Below, one piece after another: positions 4,233-47,140 of a DNA stretch of 64,000 nucleotides. Each line of letters starts with the position of its first letter. Position 1 is the stretch's first letter. The notes beneath the pieces are model-generated. The model did not search any database. It saw only the letters and a list, made by a program, of their open reading frames with translations, and was not told where the DNA came from. The position numbers were made by a program, and so were the translations under genes. Where the stretch lies: positions 7,923,001-7,987,000 of the forward strand of contig NZ_CP051680.1 of assembly GCF_012849095.1 (NCBI RefSeq), read 5' to 3'. Source of the stretch: Cohnella herbarum. Lineage in GTDB: Bacteria; Bacillota; Bacilli; Paenibacillales; Paenibacillaceae.

Positions 4233-4970
4233 CACTTAATTCGAAAAAATAAGTTTAGTGGTAACCGCCGAATACGTCCATCCAACCGTTCTGGATTTTC
4301 AGTTTGGATACTTCGGATTCGCGGTTCGTTCTCTGCTGCTCCACGCTCAAACCCGCGAACAGATAGAGAGGGAGTTGCTTCATCTCGCTTAAAGGATCTA
4401 TTAATTTCGATTTGCGGGAAGACGTGTGATTCATCCGGTAATAAAGCGTCGAACGGCTAAGTCCAAGAAGAGCGGTTTGCGTGCGGATGGGGAGTCGGGT
4501 CTCTTCTTTATCGACGAACACGTTGCGGTCTTCCTTGGACAACCTCGATATCGTAGCTTGTTTCAGCCAATCCAACTGCAGACGCAATTGATCGATTTCC
4601 GTTTGCTTTTCTCCGATTTGCCGTTCGTAATCGCCTTTCAGTTTATCGGTTTTCTTATGATCGTTCTCGAATAGCCTGGACAGATTTTGCACGGCGTGTT
4701 TTTTCCACCGGTTCAAGACGAGGGGGTGGATGCCGTGTTCTTCGGCGAGCTCGGAAATACTGGTTTGTTCCTCGAGAAGCTTGGATATCATGTGCGCCTT
4801 CTGATGGGGAGTGAACCTTCTGCGGGTAGCAGCAGCCATATTTATATCTTCCTTTCCGTGGTCCAAATCTCAGTTCGTCCGAGGGGGAATGACTGATTTT
4901 TAACCTCATTCTAGTGTAAAAAAGGGCGATATTCAAGTATTAATCCTACTTGACACATAGGAATTAAGTG
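4233..4970 (-). mobile_element. Decayed, internally deleted IS3-type insertion sequence
   Basis: About 740 bases bounded by a perfect 10-bp inverted repeat (CACTTAATTC at 4233-4242 and GAATTAAGTG at 4961-4970) enclose one transposase-derived reading frame. Full IS3-family elements are usually 1.2-1.5 kb, so most of the second transposase frame, including the DDE catalytic core, has been lost. The boundaries are inferred from the inverted repeat alone; I did not find a clear target-site duplication. The right end overlaps a promoter-like sequence that faces the organosulfur cluster. Confidence 0.6.
4255..4839 (-). pseudogene. IS3-family transposase remnant (OrfA fused to the start of OrfB)
   Basis: The 194-residue frame begins with an IS3 OrfA-type helix-turn-helix (RRRFTPHQKAHMISKLLEEQ, then LAEEHGIHPLVLNRWKKHA) and a leucine-zipper-like helix (residues about 65-105). 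Near residue 130 it passes into an OrfB-like start (TALLGLSRSTLYYRM) and then into unrelated sequence ending in a stop. The DDE catalytic domain is missing, so it cannot be an active transposase. The ATG at 4839 is preferred over 4866 because AGGAAG lies just upstream of it. It could retain DNA binding to the IS ends; that is inference. Confidence 0.75.
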
Positions 4971-4979
4971 GATTAAGAT
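4950..4979 (+). promoter_or_regulatory. Candidate sigma-A promoter for the organosulfur cluster
   Basis: TTGACA at 4950-4955 and TAAGAT at 4974-4979 are separated by 18 bases and point toward the ABC transporter gene at 5092. The right inverted repeat of the IS remnant lies within the spacer, so the insertion may supply or have altered this promoter. Transcription has not been shown. Confidence 0.45.
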
Positions 4980-5091
4980 TCCTATTATCCTACGGAGCCT
5001 ATTCGTCGCTCCTGGAAGCAACGCTGACCAGACAAACTGGAAGAACATTGATTTTTATAGAACGCGAGCGTAGGCAAGGAGTGATGAGCAG

Positions 5092-21120: not shown

Positions 21121-22362
21121 TTAGAGGCCATTCATTAGCTCATCGAGCTTTTGGACTGCTTCTTTTTTTCGTGTTTTTGTTACGTGTAGATATATGTCCT
21201 TCGTTACTCGATCCGACTTATGCCCTAGACGCTCCATGATGGCCTCTATGGATACACCGGCTTCGGCCATGAGTGAAGTATGGGTATGCCTCATCGAATG
21301 CGGTGAGAGGGCTGTATTCAAGCCCGCGTACTTTAACAGTGTGGTCATGCGCTTATGAACGCTGCCGCGTGAAATTGGATATCCTAGCAATGTATCTTCC
21401 CGAGCAAATACGTAATCCTTATCTAGATAAGTTTTCTTATGTTCCATTTTGAAAATGTTCTGTCGGGCTTTCAAACTTTTCAATTCTGTAACAAGCACCT
21501 TATTAATGTCGATGACACGCTTTGAGCTTATCGTCTTTGGTGGGTTTAATCCTGGATTCGCAACTCCATCCTTCTCATACAACGTTTTGTTGATATTGAT
21601 TGTCTGGTTTACCAGATCGATATCCCGCCACTTTAGAGCAACCATCTCCCCGATTCGCAATCCTGTATAAGCTAATAAATAATACCTCACGAAATCATCC
21701 GGATGGCCCTTTTTAGCCTCATGGAGGAAACGGGCAAGCTCTTCCTTCTCTAAATACTTCGGAAGCTCGTTCTCATTTTCTAACTCTTCAACTGTCTTTT
21801 GAAAAGTTGGTAACTGGGCTTTTTCAGTTGGATCGGAAGCGATTATTTCAAGATCAACTGCATTGGCGAACAGTAGTTTTGCCGTCTCATGAATACTTTC
21901 AATTGTTTTCTTCGAGTAGCCTTTTCTCTTAACTTTCTTACCGACTTCTTTGTTCTTGAGCTCAATGAGCATGTCCTGATACATTTTTCGGGTAATTTTC
22001 TTAAGTGGGATTTCGGAGAAGTGAGCGGATAGGTTTTTGAGTCTAGCACGCCTAATATCGATCGTGCTGTTTCTCACTTTTCCAGTAGCTGCATAAATGT
22101 CAATCCATTGTTCTGCGAATTCCTTAAACGAAACATTTTTCTCCGATACGTATGTACCGTCAGCAACGGATACAATAGCCTTTGCATAAGCGAGCTCTGC
22201 TTCCTTCTGAGACTTGAAGCCATGTTTCTCCGTTTGCCGGCGTTTGCCCGTCTTAGGATCTGGGCCGAGCTCGAGCCGATAAGACCAGGTAGCTCCGCAT
22301 TTACACTTTCCCTCGCATTTACAACTACGTTTACGTACCGTTGATTTAGCTATTGTTTTCAA
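21121..22362 (-). CDS. Tyrosine-type site-specific integrase
   Basis: Catalyses integration and excision of the element. The 413-residue protein has a short Cys-rich N-terminal segment (SCKCEGKCKCG), an arm-binding domain, a SAM-like core-binding domain (residues about 70-190) and a catalytic domain. Arg in YTGLRIGEMVALKW, His-x-x-Arg in SPHSMRHTHTSLM, LGHKSD and the nucleophile Tyr in TKDIYLHVT are all in place, so it should be active. The only upstream start is TTG at 22362, unusually close to its GAGAGGAG sequence. It is transcribed toward the left end. Confidence 0.93.
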   Translation of the reverse strand: MKTIAKSTVRKRSCKCEGKCKCGATWSYRLELGPDPKTGKRRQTEKHGFKSQKEAELAYAKAIVSVADGTYVSEKNVSFKEFAEQWIDIYAATGKVRNSTIDIRRARLKNLSAHFSEIPLKKITRKMYQDMLIELKNKEVGKKVKRKGYSKKTIESIHETAKLLFANAVDLEIIASDPTEKAQLPTFQKTVEELENENELPKYLEKEELARFLHEAKKGHPDDFVRYYLLAYTGLRIGEMVALKWRDIDLVNQTININKTLYEKDGVANPGLNPPKTISSKRVIDINKVLVTELKSLKARQNIFKMEHKKTYLDKDYVFAREDTLLGYPISRGSVHKRMTTLLKYAGLNTALSPHSMRHTHTSLMAEAGVSIEAIMERLGHKSDRVTKDIYLHVTKTRKKEAVQKLDELMNGL

Positions 22363-22403: not shown

Positions 22404-22730
22404 TCAATAACGCAAACCTGCTGTATTGTGTTCAAGAGCCTTTTTAGTCACTTCATGCAACTTGTCTATTATTGGTTTTGAGCGCACTACTTCAGATACA
22501 TCATTACTTATATATTTGCGTGCCCCAACACGAAGTCCCTCTTCATTCAACTTTTTAGCCACTTCCGCTACAGCACCTTCAATGGCGTACTCATGAATAA
22601 TCCGCTTTTCGAGCGTATCGGGAGAATAAGACTCGATTAAAGCAATGACTTCATTCTGATGTTCAATTTCTTTCTGGAGGGCCTCCACGTATTCTTTCCT
22701 CTTCTGTAGACTGATTTTTTTCATCTTCAT
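22404..22730 (-). CDS. Hypothetical small helical protein
   Basis: A 108-residue, mostly helical, charged protein. The first 45 residues look coiled-coil (KRKEYVEALQKEIEHQNEV), and the C-terminal half (EVAKKLNEEGLRVGARKYIS) could be a DNA-binding helix pair. It lies between the integrase and the palindrome-rich region and is read with the integrase. Such a place often holds an excision or transfer accessory protein, but I recognise no family. Confidence 0.6.
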   Translation of the reverse strand: MKMKKISLQKRKEYVEALQKEIEHQNEVIALIESYSPDTLEKRIIHEYAIEGAVAEVAKKLNEEGLRVGARKYISNDVSEVVRSKPIIDKLHEVTKKALEHNTAGLRY

Positions 22731-23378
22731 AGAATTGTTCCTTTCGGTTTATGAATTTTAATACATATAGGAACCGCCATGCAGCGGGGAACCTCTTTGT
22801 AAGTCGCCTGAGCCCGATAAAGCCGTTCTGAGGGCTTGTATAGGCTGGGTGGTAGTTTGTACCGGTTAACGTTGTAGTGTGCTGAAACCATGATGAATCA
22901 ATACGAAATGGAGCTTAGACGGTGTGATTGATGGGGTATGTTGAACATACATCATAGGTTCATTACTAATGAGGTCATGGTTACGGTAAGTTAGCGTCCC
23001 CTTGTCAGTCATTGCGTGCTGGAGCTTAGACGGTGCATTGTCTGCATACGTCCGTAATAATCGTGTAGGGTTTACGACGCGCGTCGTATTAGTACCCGGG
23101 TGTCGACCAGTTATAGCGCGCGCTATTTTCTCTAAAGTGCACGCGAGTGCACTTTTCTTTCGACACTTCTGTCGAATCATGATCTCACTCACCAATTATG
23201 GTGAGTCCAAAATTGGACTGTCATGGGTCAGCATGGATCCGTGCGCTCCTCAATTTCGACTCAGCAATTTTGCATAGTCTCATTACATCAACGGAATGGT
23301 GGAGTTTCAACGAACGGAAATTCGCGTTGGTTACTTCTTGCCCTAAGAGATTCTTAGGGTGCGCAATTTTTCGTTCAG
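22731..23378. other. Non-coding region rich in repeats and palindromes
   Basis: 648 bases without a credible gene. It contains a 16-bp direct repeat (TGGAGCTTAGACGGTG at 22909-22924 and 23020-23035), an inverted repeat GTATGTT-G-AACATAC at 22936-22950, the palindrome array at 23073-23219, and a hairpin CCCTAAGA-GAT-TCTTAGGG at 23341-23359. Open frames here lack ribosome binding sites and credible protein sequence. A replication or transfer origin, or a packaging site, is possible. Confidence 0.6.
23073..23219. repeat. Array of distinct perfect palindromes and hairpins
   Basis: In order: TACGACGC/GCGTCGTA (23073-23088), ACCCGGGT (23094-23101), GTCGAC (23102-23107), ATAGCGC/GCGCTAT (23113-23126), AAAGTGCAC-gcga-GTGCACTTT (23134-23155), TTCGACA-cttc-TGTCGAA (23159-23176), ATCATGAT (23176-23183), ACTCACC-aattat-GGTGAGT (23187-23206) and AGTCCAA-aa-TTGGACT (23204-23219). 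Each arm set is different, so this is not a tandem repeat. Confidence 0.85.
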
Positions 23379-24317
23379 TTACTGCCGATCCGGGAACAAC
23401 ACTTTGAGCATGTCCAGGATGCGTTGGCGATCGGGAGCATTTAGTGGCTGATGTTTATACGTGACTTCTTCTTCATTGAGTAAGCTAGTAAGTTCTTTGT
23501 TCTGCGTTACTTCACCAATGGTCAACGGAAAATCTTTGAGAGCCATTTCTAGATCACGTCCAACGGTTGTTATATCTCCTAAATCGAATTTTCTTCCACT
23601 ATGTTCTTCAACTACCCCCACTAACGCTTTTACAACGTCGCGAATGGTTATACGTGCTGCTTCTCTTGCTTCTTCATCGGTCATCTCTACTAAGTCCCAT
23701 GTTAAATCATCGAGTTGTTTTAGTTGCATTTGGTTGCCACGTTTTTGATGGCTTCCAGTGGTAACTAATTTTGAATAATCGATATCTAATTCATGTTTTT
23801 TGGCTATTTTAATGACATCTGCATAAAGTTTCCCCATTTCATCAAAATCGTCAAGTCTCTGCATCATTTCAATTAACTCATTAGTAATGTTCGAGAAGTC
23901 GAACAATGAATCTTTCATCACTTCATCGTCAATTGTGCTTTTCATTAATTCAATTAGATCCACTTTGATCTCTTCCGGATAGTCTCCGTTAATTGACATT
24001 TGGGATAATAAATCTCGGAACGATTCAATTACCTTCGATCGATCATTGTACGCTTCTTTTAATTGTTTTTTCTTATCATCAGAGAGACCATCAAAGTAAC
24101 CGGAGTATTCAAGAAGATCACCATATGGGTGATCGTAAGCTTCAGAAAGTTTCCGTAGTGTCTCTCTTGATGGTATTGGTGGCTTATTAGTTTTTCGATT
24201 GTTTCCTAATTCTAGATCGCGTATATATGTGTGACTTAGCCCGGTGAGTTTAGCAACATCTCGTAAAGTCATTTTCCCTCGTAGTTCGCGAAGTTTTTCA
24301 CCAAATTTCTGATTCAA
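23379..24317 (-). CDS. XRE-type repressor-like regulator with long C-terminal domain
   Basis: A 312-residue regulator, probably the element's master repressor. Residues about 5-70 form an XRE helix-turn-helix (LRGKMTLRDVAKLTGLSHTYIRDLELGNNR). The rest is helical and acidic with no protease-like S24 or ImmA motif that I can see, so induction may not be the classical RecA type. The start is TTG at 24317, with AAGGAG upstream. It is divergent from the 24476 regulator, as in phage switches. Confidence 0.8.
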   Translation of the reverse strand: MNQKFGEKLRELRGKMTLRDVAKLTGLSHTYIRDLELGNNRKTNKPPIPSRETLRKLSEAYDHPYGDLLEYSGYFDGLSDDKKKQLKEAYNDRSKVIESFRDLLSQMSINGDYPEEIKVDLIELMKSTIDDEVMKDSLFDFSNITNELIEMMQRLDDFDEMGKLYADVIKIAKKHELDIDYSKLVTTGSHQKRGNQMQLKQLDDLTWDLVEMTDEEAREAARITIRDVVKALVGVVEEHSGRKFDLGDITTVGRDLEMALKDFPLTIGEVTQNKELTSLLNEEEVTYKHQPLNAPDRQRILDMLKVLFPDRQ

Positions 24318-24390: not shown

Positions 24391-24455
24391 GTTGTTTCGT
24401 ACTTGACACTTTATAACATCCATAATAAAATGAATTTTGTAAAGTGTGAAACAAC
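24391..24455 (+). promoter_or_regulatory. Switch promoter flanked by GTTGTTTC operator half-sites
   Basis: TTGACA at 24403-24408 and TAAAAT at 24426-24431 (17-base spacer) form a promoter for the small XRE gene. GTTGTTTC (24391-24398) lies just upstream of the -35, and its inverse GAAACAAC (24448-24455) lies just beyond the -10. A nested CACTTTA/TAAAGTG pair (24407-24413 and 24440-24446) is also present. The same half-sites recur as a 17-bp palindrome at 24671. Confidence 0.65.
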
Positions 24456-24475
24456 AAAAGAGTGAGGTGATTTTA

Positions 24476-24736
24476 TTGAAAAATGATGTTAAGTACCTGC
24501 GTCGAAGTAAGGCTTTCGATATGACCCAGGAAGAGCTGGCTCAAATTATAGGTGTAACGAAAGCCACGATATCAGCAATAGAGAATGGGGCGAATACTTC
24601 CGCGGAGAATATGTTGAAGATTTCAAGAGTTTTCAGTAAGGATCCAAGGGAAATTTTTTTTGTTGAAGATGTTGTTTCTGAAACAACAAACGAATTAGAA
24701 ATAGGAATGGGGGGATTACATGGAACCAGTAATTAA
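24476..24736 (+). CDS. Small XRE-family regulator (Cro-like)
   Basis: An 86-residue single-domain helix-turn-helix protein (LRRSKAFDMTQEELAQIIGV, then TKATISAIENGANTSAENM). It is probably the Cro-like or antirepressor partner of the divergent regulator. The TTG at 24476 follows GTGAGGTGATT; the longer frame from 24446 would start inside the operator. Its 3' part contains a second copy of the operator. Confidence 0.8.
   Translation: MKNDVKYLRRSKAFDMTQEELAQIIGVTKATISAIENGANTSAENMLKISRVFSKDPREIFFVEDVVSETTNELEIGMGGLHGTSN
24671..24687. promoter_or_regulatory. Perfect operator-like palindrome inside the Cro-like gene
   Basis: GTTGTTTC-T-GAAACAAC is a 17-bp perfect palindrome made of the two half-sites that flank the switch promoter. 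It lies 33 bp before the next regulator's ATG and may be a second operator for it. Confidence 0.6.
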
Positions 24737-26886: not shown

Positions 26887-27867
26887 ATGGCGAGACCAAC
26901 TAAGAGTACAGTTGACTATTTCCCGCATTATATCAAAGCCGGAAGAACCTTATTCATCCTAGAAAATGACTATGGTAACGATGGTTATGCATTCTGGTTC
27001 AAGCTTCTTGAAGTGTTAGGTGACACCGAGGGAATGGCATTCCATTACGGAGATCAAGCCAATAAACGGTTCTTGTTGTCTAAGACTAGGGTTGATGAGG
27101 AGAAAGGAGTTAGCATCCTTGAGACACTCGCTCAACTGGGAACTATCGATAAGGACTTGTGGCAAGATCACCAAATCATATGGGTGCAGAACTTAGTAGA
27201 CAACGTGAAGGATGCATTCAAGAAGCGCATTGGTTCATTGCCTCATAAACCCGGAAATATAGTTTCTTCCACCGGAAACCATCATATAAGAGATGTTTCT
27301 GATACCGGAAACGACGATAATGATGCGTTTCCTCCGGAAGAAATCGGGAAAGAGAAAGAGAAAGAGAAAGAGAAAGAGAAAGTAAAGAGAAATGAAATTA
27401 AAGAAGATCCTTCCTCCCGAAATAAGAAAACCGCTTATTCCGAGGACAATGTTTATTATCAAATGTCTCTATATTTTCATTCGAAAATAATGGAGCATGC
27501 AGCGATTAATAAAGTCGATCACCTTATAAGAAACGTTAATATGCAGACGTGGGCAGATGACTTTTGTAAGATCGTTGAAATAGATAAGAGAGATACGAAG
27601 GAACTGCACAAAATCATTGATTGGAGTACGTCAGATTCATTCTGGCAAAAGAACATACTTTCTCCAGATAAGCTCAGGAAGAAATATATCGACCTAGCAA
27701 TAAAGATGAATTCCAACCCGAGCAATCATGGTTATCCCAAGAAGAAATCGAAGTTCGAAGATACAATGGATTTTCTTGATAAACAATTTAGAAAGGTGGA
27801 GCAGCATGAAGGAGACGGAAGTAATCAAGATTATGGCCATGATCACGACAGCTTACCCGAGCCGTGA
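26887..27867 (+). CDS. Phage-type replication protein (DUF4373/Lin1244-like, DnaD-like)
   Basis: A 326-residue replication initiator or replisome organiser. Residues about 1-110 match the Lin1244/Lin1753 N-terminal type (RPTKSTVDYFPHYIKAGRTL, then YGNDGYAFWFKLLEVLG). A Lys/Glu-rich linker (about 155-170) follows. The C-terminal part (residues about 190-285) resembles a DnaD-type helicase-recruiting domain. The next gene is a helicase loader, which supports the reading. It indicates the element can direct its own DNA replication start. Confidence 0.78.
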   Translation: MARPTKSTVDYFPHYIKAGRTLFILENDYGNDGYAFWFKLLEVLGDTEGMAFHYGDQANKRFLLSKTRVDEEKGVSILETLAQLGTIDKDLWQDHQIIWVQNLVDNVKDAFKKRIGSLPHKPGNIVSSTGNHHIRDVSDTGNDDNDAFPPEEIGKEKEKEKEKEKVKRNEIKEDPSSRNKKTAYSEDNVYYQMSLYFHSKIMEHAAINKVDHLIRNVNMQTWADDFCKIVEIDKRDTKELHKIIDWSTSDSFWQKNILSPDKLRKKYIDLAIKMNSNPSNHGYPKKKSKFEDTMDFLDKQFRKVEQHEGDGSNQDYGHDHDSLPEP

Positions 27868-46938: not shown

Positions 46939-46975
46939 AAGGATAGTTTTCCCCACAATCGAATAGAAATGGCCA

Positions 46976-47140
46976 TCTTATCAAGAGCAGGCGGAGGGAC
47001 TAGCCCTATGAAGCCCGGCAACCGACGTATTTTATTATACGCACGGTGCTAAATCTTGCGGAAACTTAACGTTTCTGACAGATGAGAGGGGCGCGCGTAC
47101 GATCTGCTACACGACCCTATCTCATTTGGGGTCGTTTTTT
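46976..47140 (+). promoter_or_regulatory. S-box (SAM-I) riboswitch with terminator
   Basis: The aptamer carries the hallmark segments CTTATCAAGAGCAGGCGGAG, GACTAGCCCTATGAAGCCCG and GGCAACC, and ends with GATGAGAG. A terminator hairpin (ACGACCC and GGGGTCGT with a T run, 47111-47140) follows. When S-adenosylmethionine is plentiful it should stop transcription of metA-metI-patB. Confidence 0.95.

Follow-up and report, generated by a model that had tools for sequence, protein, structure and literature searches.

The locus analyzed here raises the question of what a dense run of mutually unrelated palindromes may be doing in a prophage, between the repressor gene and the genes on the integrase side. 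The window, that is, the whole stretch of DNA that we analyzed, spans 64,000 nucleotides (64 kb) of the 8.5 Mb genome of Cohnella herbarum. A sequence-only reading of it had proposed, as possible kinds of element, a replication origin, a transfer or packaging site, or a folded RNA. Our results did not support any of these, and point instead to a collection of candidate binding sites for phage antirepressors.

Location and palindrome density of the array

The palindromes occupy the 648-bp gap between the repressor gene and a small gene, orf108. The features of the locus are (window coordinates):

21121–22362, minus strand: tyrosine integrase (Phage_integrase PF00589, E 7.6e-28, plus Arm-DNA-bind_4; phrog_1)
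22404–22730, minus strand: orf108, a conserved small protein between integrase and repressor, with no Pfam match
22898–22924, plus strand: direct repeat, left copy (27 bp, 81%, 16 bp identical), to the left of the block of elements E1–E3
about 22930–23374, unstranded: whole palindrome array, in the 648-bp gap
23009–23035, plus strand: direct repeat, right copy, pairing with the left copy at 22898–22924
23379–24317, minus strand: cI-like repressor with a Cro/C1 helix-turn-helix (HTH_3, phrog_8)
24446–24736, plus strand: Cro-like regulator (HTH_3, E 4.2e-14), where the early genes start

Repressor, orf108 and integrase are all encoded on the minus strand, and on the far side of the repressor lie Cro-like, helix-turn-helix, excisionase-like and DnaD-like genes. 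The palindrome cluster was indeed present at 23073–23219, where it had been reported; this range proved too short, as the array reaches from about 22930 to 23374. Nor is the array directly next to the integrase, as had been described, because orf108 (22404–22730) lies between them. The relatives of orf108 amount to 12 proteins (a count that includes orf108 itself) and carry Paenibacillus and Brevibacillus names; at three loci (L009, L010 and L011) they are likewise sandwiched between an integrase and a repressor. One relative is named as lying on a Brevibacillus plasmid. Elsewhere in the window there is a SAM riboswitch (RF00162, 80 bits) at 46975–47088.

The density of the cluster was not reproduced by shuffled sequences. 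At 23073–23219 we counted five disjoint hairpins (arm of at least 6, loop up to 4), covering 90 of the 147 bp; 2000 dinucleotide shuffles of this sequence averaged 0.16 and gave two at most. Raising the minimum arm to 7, with loops still no longer than 4, again left five, whereas 1000 shuffles averaged 0.04, also with two at most. No other 150 bp of the 64-kb window is as dense, the runner-up having three hairpins, and in ten shuffles of the whole window the maximum per 150 bp never exceeded three. A sixth hairpin, at 23204–23219, overlaps its neighbour by three bases. The dense cluster is thus real; the nine palindromes that had been counted are reached only if short perfect palindromes are included (by eye, ACCCGGGT, GTCGAC and ATCATGAT). 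Both repeats noted to the left of the cluster are also there, a 16-bp direct repeat (22909–22924 and 23020–23035) and an inverted repeat (22936–22950). The two copies of the 27-bp direct repeat bracket the block of E1–E3, as if this block had been inserted or duplicated. Overall, the analysis supports a working structure that is neither a tandem nor a mobile repeat.

Dense palindromes in the early region of a prophage could suggest an origin of replication, a packaging site or a transfer site with unrelated hairpins. However, the DnaD-like gene, at 26887, is about 3.5 kb from the array, an iterated unit is absent, and six of the elements match antirepressor sites, as described below. We regard such a site as very improbable.

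Palindromes inside Bro-N and pRha genes

The 641-bp stretch holding the array has no sequence relatives in phage and plasmid records, and a comparison with 394 genomes of the family returned two short matches besides itself. Both fall on the inverted repeat at 22936–22950, GTATGTTGAACATAC. The first lies in another palindrome-rich gap (locus L013 of genome G381; fold z -12 and -9), and the second lies inside a phage gene. The exact 15-mer GTATGTTGAACATAC occurs at 35 places in viral contigs, of which ten loci were examined closely. Six of the ten have GGGG/GTC or GATC-like flanks, and in all six the 15-mer is inside a Bro-N-related gene, where it codes for VCSTYP; in one of the genes carrying it (L014) the Pfam Bro-N domain is shown. 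We did not find sister arrays through the relatives of orf108 and of the repressor, in viral contigs or genome contigs, nor an array of the window kind at the orf108 loci L009–L011. Apart from the two short matches, the 641-bp stretch as a whole is thus absent from the other genomes among the 394; this type of element recurs, whereas the window array itself does not.

The places returned by a search for Bro-N genes were examined as 30 loci and 80 fetched stretches, with the remainder left out. For hairpin statistics, Bro-N genes were chosen by protein similarity alone, which gave 71 genes from 80 loci (the rest were without an anchor or duplicates); loci L027–L061, chosen by the exact 15-mer, were excluded here. 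A perfect hairpin (arm of at least 7, loop of at most 5) was found in 24 of the 71 genes within the 75 bp before the codons of a NExGLY motif. In the interval from 60 to 30 bp before these codons there were 22 hairpins, compared with 1.5 expected from synonymous codon shuffles. Imperfect stems were seen in 95 of 218 distinct Bro-N sites, compared with 4.6 in mononucleotide shuffles; the 218 sites, which include some of L027–L061, derive from 362 rows, 45 of them without an anchor or too near the start and the rest duplicates. A smaller set has 75 sites (31 of 111 rows were without an anchor), and loci L251 and L263 are absent from its listed sites.

The arms of the palindrome differ from gene to gene, and the same core can stand in different reading frames: GTAAGTTCAACTTAC codes for VSSTY and CTAAGTTCAACTTAG for AKFNL, which argues for a constraint on the DNA and not on the protein alone. 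Mismatches within the stems show no strand preference (15 G.T against 18 A.C).

Where genes have the same palindrome, the short helix coded just upstream also tends to be shared. Thus, QVAGVKRR goes with GTGATTTCAAATCAC, PRVVRQR with GTATGTTCAACATAC, RMVKER with GTAAGTTCAACTTAC, and NPTQAISR with CTATGTTCAACATAG. We measured this in 99 genes with an odd-centred perfect palindrome (arm of at least 6), some of them from L027–L061. Palindrome similarity and helix identity both carry phylogeny, which partial correlations reduce and do not remove; with identity across the remainder of the protein taken into account, the partial correlation between helix and palindrome was 0.429 over all genes, and 0.545 and 0.295 within two lineages. 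None of 1000 permutations reached the observed value in any of these three sets. Over all 99 genes the segment LESRKPEA scored 0.487, slightly above the helix; this advantage vanished within the lineages, in each of which the helix was the top window (the best other window reached 0.223 and 0.184). In a structure model of a Bro-N protein (mean pLDDT 73; about 81–92 over residues 31–120, the Bro-N part), helices at 50–57 and 62–67 are followed by strands at 74–81 and 84–91. A fold search with this model gave no match among solved structures at E ≤ 0.001, and no solved relative of Bro-N was found in the search of solved structures.

The pRha genes gave a mixed picture. A CAATTTTG-centred palindrome with an arm of at least 6 was found at a fixed place in 5 of the 11 pRha genes examined (Ldl1, L109, cdtI, Javan112 and Pseudomonas CF208a). 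It is absent from the other six: phiSa2wa has an arm-6 palindrome with another centre at the fixed place, L285 has an arm of 5 only, and in BarryFoster, phiFL3B, VA7 and E2 no palindrome was found there. Two further pRha genes, those of G381 and Tadhana, also carry the CAATTTTG palindrome. The complete genome of Tadhana has two antirepressor palindromes, each present once (at most one mismatch) and inside its own gene.

Three side observations concern these genes. The pRha gene of Javan112 (L454) has a second, stronger palindrome (arm 10) at nt 136–159, upstream of the CAATTTTG one. In Ldl1 (L365, 9480–9585) the non-coding DNA upstream of a Bro-N gene has, by eye, about three palindromes of the CAATTTTG kind, and these resemble the site in the pRha gene of Ldl1 itself. 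In G381 the pRha frame ends early (108 aa) and is directly followed by a strong hairpin (L458, 1758–1784) that resembles a Bro-N site, or a terminator.

From family names and annotations, Bro-N and pRha proteins are putative antirepressors. The position of the palindromes and their co-variation with the helix suggest that each Bro-N protein would bind as a dimer to the palindrome of its own gene. As a first step of the mechanism that we propose, a Bro-N dimer very probably binds the palindrome 30–60 bp before the NExGLY codons inside its own gene, with the short helix coded just upstream setting specificity, and at least some pRha proteins would do likewise with a palindrome centred on CAATTTTG. 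A further copy that might serve as an ordinary operator is rare in phages with Bro-N (2 of 42 loci at no more than two mismatches, the exceptions being L151 with 18/18 and L189 with 28/29), and we rejected this idea; action away from the protein's own gene is thus conjectural.

Candidate antirepressor sites in the window and in other arrays

We compared the elements of the window with the sites of Bro-N and pRha genes. The elements are, from left to right:

22930–22955, minus strand: E1, predicted Bro-N-type site GTATGTTCAACATAC with its flanks; firm
22954–22978, plus strand: E2, candidate Bro-N-type site TCATTACTAATGA; 21/25, one above the best of eight controls
22983–23007, minus strand: E3, candidate Bro-N-type site of the L232 type; 21/25, one above the best control; 20/22
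23073–23088, unstranded: W1 TACGACGCGCGTCGTA, palindrome; best match elsewhere 13/16
23113–23126, unstranded: W3 ATAGCGCGCGCTAT, palindrome; no good match found
23134–23155, plus strand: W4, a stem followed by TCTTT; terminator-like
23156–23176, minus strand: W5, predicted Bro-N-type site TTCGACAGAAGTGTCGAA; firm, with the exact core at 23159–23176
23187–23206, unstranded: W7 ACTCACCAATTATGGTGAGT, palindrome; its arms recur at the far end of a pRha gene
23204–23219, unstranded: W8 AGTCCAAAATTGGACT, possibly pRha-type by its centre CAATTTTG; not significant
23257–23280, unstranded: W10, candidate pRha-type site; 19/24 to the pRha site of Ldl1 (L365)
23313–23328, unstranded: W11, candidate pRha-type site; 13/16 to the pRha site of G381, 60 controls reaching at most 12
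23339–23361, plus strand: W12, hairpin, terminator-like on this strand; alternatively an AKYCLG-type Bro-N site
23361–23374, plus strand: possible pRha-type site GCGCAATTTTTCGT, overlapping the T run behind W12

E1 is firmly assigned as a Bro-N-type site by its match (25/26) to the Bro-N genes L003/L014 and L051. When the three elements of the left block were compared with three Bro-N types, E1 matched at 24/25 and E2 and E3 at 21/25 each, with controls (8 segments, 580 bp) reaching at most 20; E2 and E3 are thus weaker Bro-N-type candidates, close to the controls. The score of E3, 30.1 bits, is matched at three other places in the 64 kb. Both gain weight because they adjoin E1 and coincide with palindromes, and E2 also because of a compensated pair: compared with L184, TCATTACTAATGA against TCATTTCAAATGA, both sides of one pair differ.

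Within the 150 bp originally reported, W5 alone is a firm candidate of the Bro-N type. It is found at 18/18 inside the Bro-N genes L251 and L263, and at 21/21 with its flank in L251, in both cases directly before NExGLY-like codons; L251 is confirmed as Bro-N, and both are places of the Bro-N search. For W1, W3, W4 and W7 no match to Bro-N sites above controls was found, and W1, W3 and W7 gave no match to known antirepressor sites. The W7 pattern has six viral matches, one of which, at the far end of a pRha gene, was not counted; there, near the end of a pRha/ORF6C gene (L448, 3762–3781), a 20-bp palindrome carries the W7 arms.

W4 is probably an intrinsic terminator rather than an operator. 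Its arms were found at 31 positions spread over 30 genome loci. Of these positions, 20 are intergenic, and 17 of the 20 run into at least four T. The remaining 11, within called reading frames or at their margins, include no Bro-N or pRha gene. W4 was not listed by a simple terminator scan.

Seven pRha sites were tried on the window, and three matched above all 60 controls while four did not. W10 is above the controls, which reach at most 16, and so is W11; the possible site at 23361–23374 matches the pRha site of Tadhana at 12/14, with the 60 controls reaching at most 11. W8 matches the site in the L109 pRha gene at 12/16, a score that 3 of the 60 control segments reach. As an AKYCLG-type Bro-N site, W12 scores 18/25, inside the control range. 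In total, six of about 13 elements of the window have a candidate assignment: E1 and W5 firmly, and E2, E3, W10 and W11 above controls.

Similar arrays, whose elements were counted at a score cut-off that carries no control, were found in five other genomes. The largest is that of L013 (G381), with nine Bro-N-type elements; its pieces match five different Bro-N genes, and it also holds, at 16/16, the palindrome of the G381 pRha gene 30 kb away. At 4898–5011 the same locus has an inverted repeat with two 52-bp arms, 81% complementary, built of four Bro-N-type sites. In L078 (G095) six elements lie within 212 bp immediately downstream of the Bro-N gene of that locus. The four elements of L189 (G065) are upstream of Bro-N genes, and one of the four agrees at 28/29 with the Bro-N gene of L189 itself. 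L080 (G175) and L075 (G072) have two each; those of L075 are located between repressor and integrase, as in the window, and one is a match of 44/47. The genomes G095 and G065 have Bro-N genes as well as arrays. A Bro-N match was absent from G381 and G072, weak and partial in G175, and absent also from the genome of the window, where pRha and ANT matches were likewise not found (E ≤ 0.001).

The weakest array elements are individually near the chance level, and the same scores occur singly in many loci, so the case for the smaller arrays rests on clustering. At the score of E3, 129 loci have matches outside Bro-N genes, mostly isolated, and such isolated matches are probably due to chance. We think it likely, as the second step of the mechanism, that the window array and those of the five genomes contain sites of several different antirepressors, placed in both orientations.

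Of the 27 elements of the six arrays, 11 are in the sense and 16 in the antisense orientation relative to the genes they match, with both orientations present in five of the six arrays. This bears on the possibility of an antisense or sponge RNA, in which the array would be transcribed and its hairpins would pair with antirepressor mRNAs. Antisense RNAs of some phages (P1 c4, P22 sar) pair with antirepressor mRNAs, and in the phage-plasmid N15 a small processed RNA reportedly, going by a title, controls an antirepressor gene. The array resembles c4 and sar as a non-coding part of an immunity region that would act on antirepressor genes, the targets of such an RNA; it is rich in hairpins, folds better than its shuffles (z -4.1), and has the terminator-like W4 and W12 on the plus strand. 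In contrast to c4 and sar, its elements have mixed orientation rather than a uniformly antisense one, there is no RNA-strand signal, and there are many targets. The folding, which had been suggested as a check, surpassed that of shuffles equally on both strands (z -4.13 and -4.14), because palindromes must fold so. Over the array, no Rfam match was found at gathering scores, and a single one, weak and far below the cut-off, at E up to 5. Furthermore, G.T mismatches are not in excess of A.C (15 to 18), and the co-variation with the helix is a mark of protein-DNA recognition, of which an RNA would leave no trace. The lack of strand preference in the mismatches, together with both orientations, thus fits double-stranded DNA sites and not one RNA. 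On the grounds of mismatch symmetry and mixed orientation we rejected RNA as the main explanation, and we hold an antisense RNA to be quite improbable.

The elements could also be debris: fragments of antirepressor genes captured by recombination and without present function. They keep coding flanks (for example, the 44/47 match in L075), and the direct repeat flanks the E1–E3 block. Among changed pairs in array elements, 36 of 41 are broken and 5 compensated, although some of the 36 reflect stems wrongly picked by the script, W5 among them; decay of the array elements is possible. However, every fragment includes the palindrome, several specificities stand side by side within 212 bp in L078, perfect palindromes persist in a non-coding stretch, and E2 has its compensated pair. 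By eye, the flanks partly continue the palindrome, and their retention is therefore expected of binding sites too. We consider debris unlikely.

Possible roles of the array

On balance, we favour reading the array as a set of predicted double-stranded DNA binding sites for Bro-N and pRha antirepressors, mostly foreign, in the immunity region of a prophage. That proteins bind these sites, that foreign antirepressors do so on the array, and that expression between repressor and integrase changes in consequence, is what we infer from the comparisons above. As a third step, more tentative than the first two and somewhat less likely than not, the antirepressor of a rival phage would bind its site here and alter transcription between the repressor and orf108–integrase, and the prophage would thereby respond to the induction of rivals.

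The same sites might instead be decoys that soak up foreign antirepressors and shield the lysogen from cross-induction, leaving the neighbouring genes unaffected. All the evidence on site identity applies equally to this possibility, and one site per specificity, many specificities and a genome without the proteins themselves would fit a shield. For the Gifsy/Fels-1 prophages of Salmonella, antirepressors of one prophage are reported to act on others in the same cell, and in polylysogens antirepressors can act on non-cognate repressors (PMC3121763). Yet a single site per chromosome would hold only a dimer or two, the arrays of L078 and L189 adjoin a Bro-N gene of their own phage, and those of L189 and L013 each include a site belonging to an antirepressor gene in that same genome. 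We rank sensing first, because the arrays of the window and L075 are in the gap between repressor and integrase and because one site per specificity is little for titration; the decoy, which seems possible though rather doubtful, comes second, and debris third.

Parts of this arrangement are familiar from other systems. Phage operator clusters and stoperators also gather many short regulator sites in non-coding phage DNA, and in these, as in mycobacteriophage L5, one protein reads many copies of one motif. Unlike there, nearly every site of the array differs and would belong to the protein of a different phage; multiple copies of one motif, as in iterons or stoperators, were not found in the window array. 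CRISPR mini-arrays, which occur in phages, are likewise collections of short segments similar to the genes of other phages. In contrast to them, the array has no repeat unit (a repeat search of the array found no CRISPR-type identical repeats between spacers), and the pieces identified are palindromes that come from one position in a single type of gene. The likeness to the Gifsy/Fels-1 antirepressors (PMC3121763) is that of antirepressors acting across the prophages of one cell; these are small proteins that bind repressor proteins, whereas here predicted DNA sites of Bro-N and pRha proteins are collected. Titles and abstract openings among the literature matches listed did not report palindromes inside antirepressor genes, or such arrays; the nearest precedents are the operator clusters of a single repressor and the antirepressor cross-talk in Salmonella (PMC3121763). 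To our knowledge, a collection of sites for the regulators of many phages would be a new kind of element.

A broader reading, which we judge about evenly balanced, is that temperate phages keep libraries of the sites of other phages' antirepressors in their immunity regions, in order to listen or to shield. It depends on a rule that we include in the same even judgement, namely that an antirepressor gene carries the site of its own protein beside the codons of the recognition helix. Since the site adjoins these codons, specificity and site would travel as one cassette.

If this is true, prophages would interact through a readable DNA code, and Bro-N would gain a recognition code: the site within an antirepressor gene would predict what the encoded protein binds. 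Prophage cross-talk, shown for some Salmonella phages (PMC3121763), would become testable across many genomes, and an array would predict which foreign phages a prophage can sense or resist.
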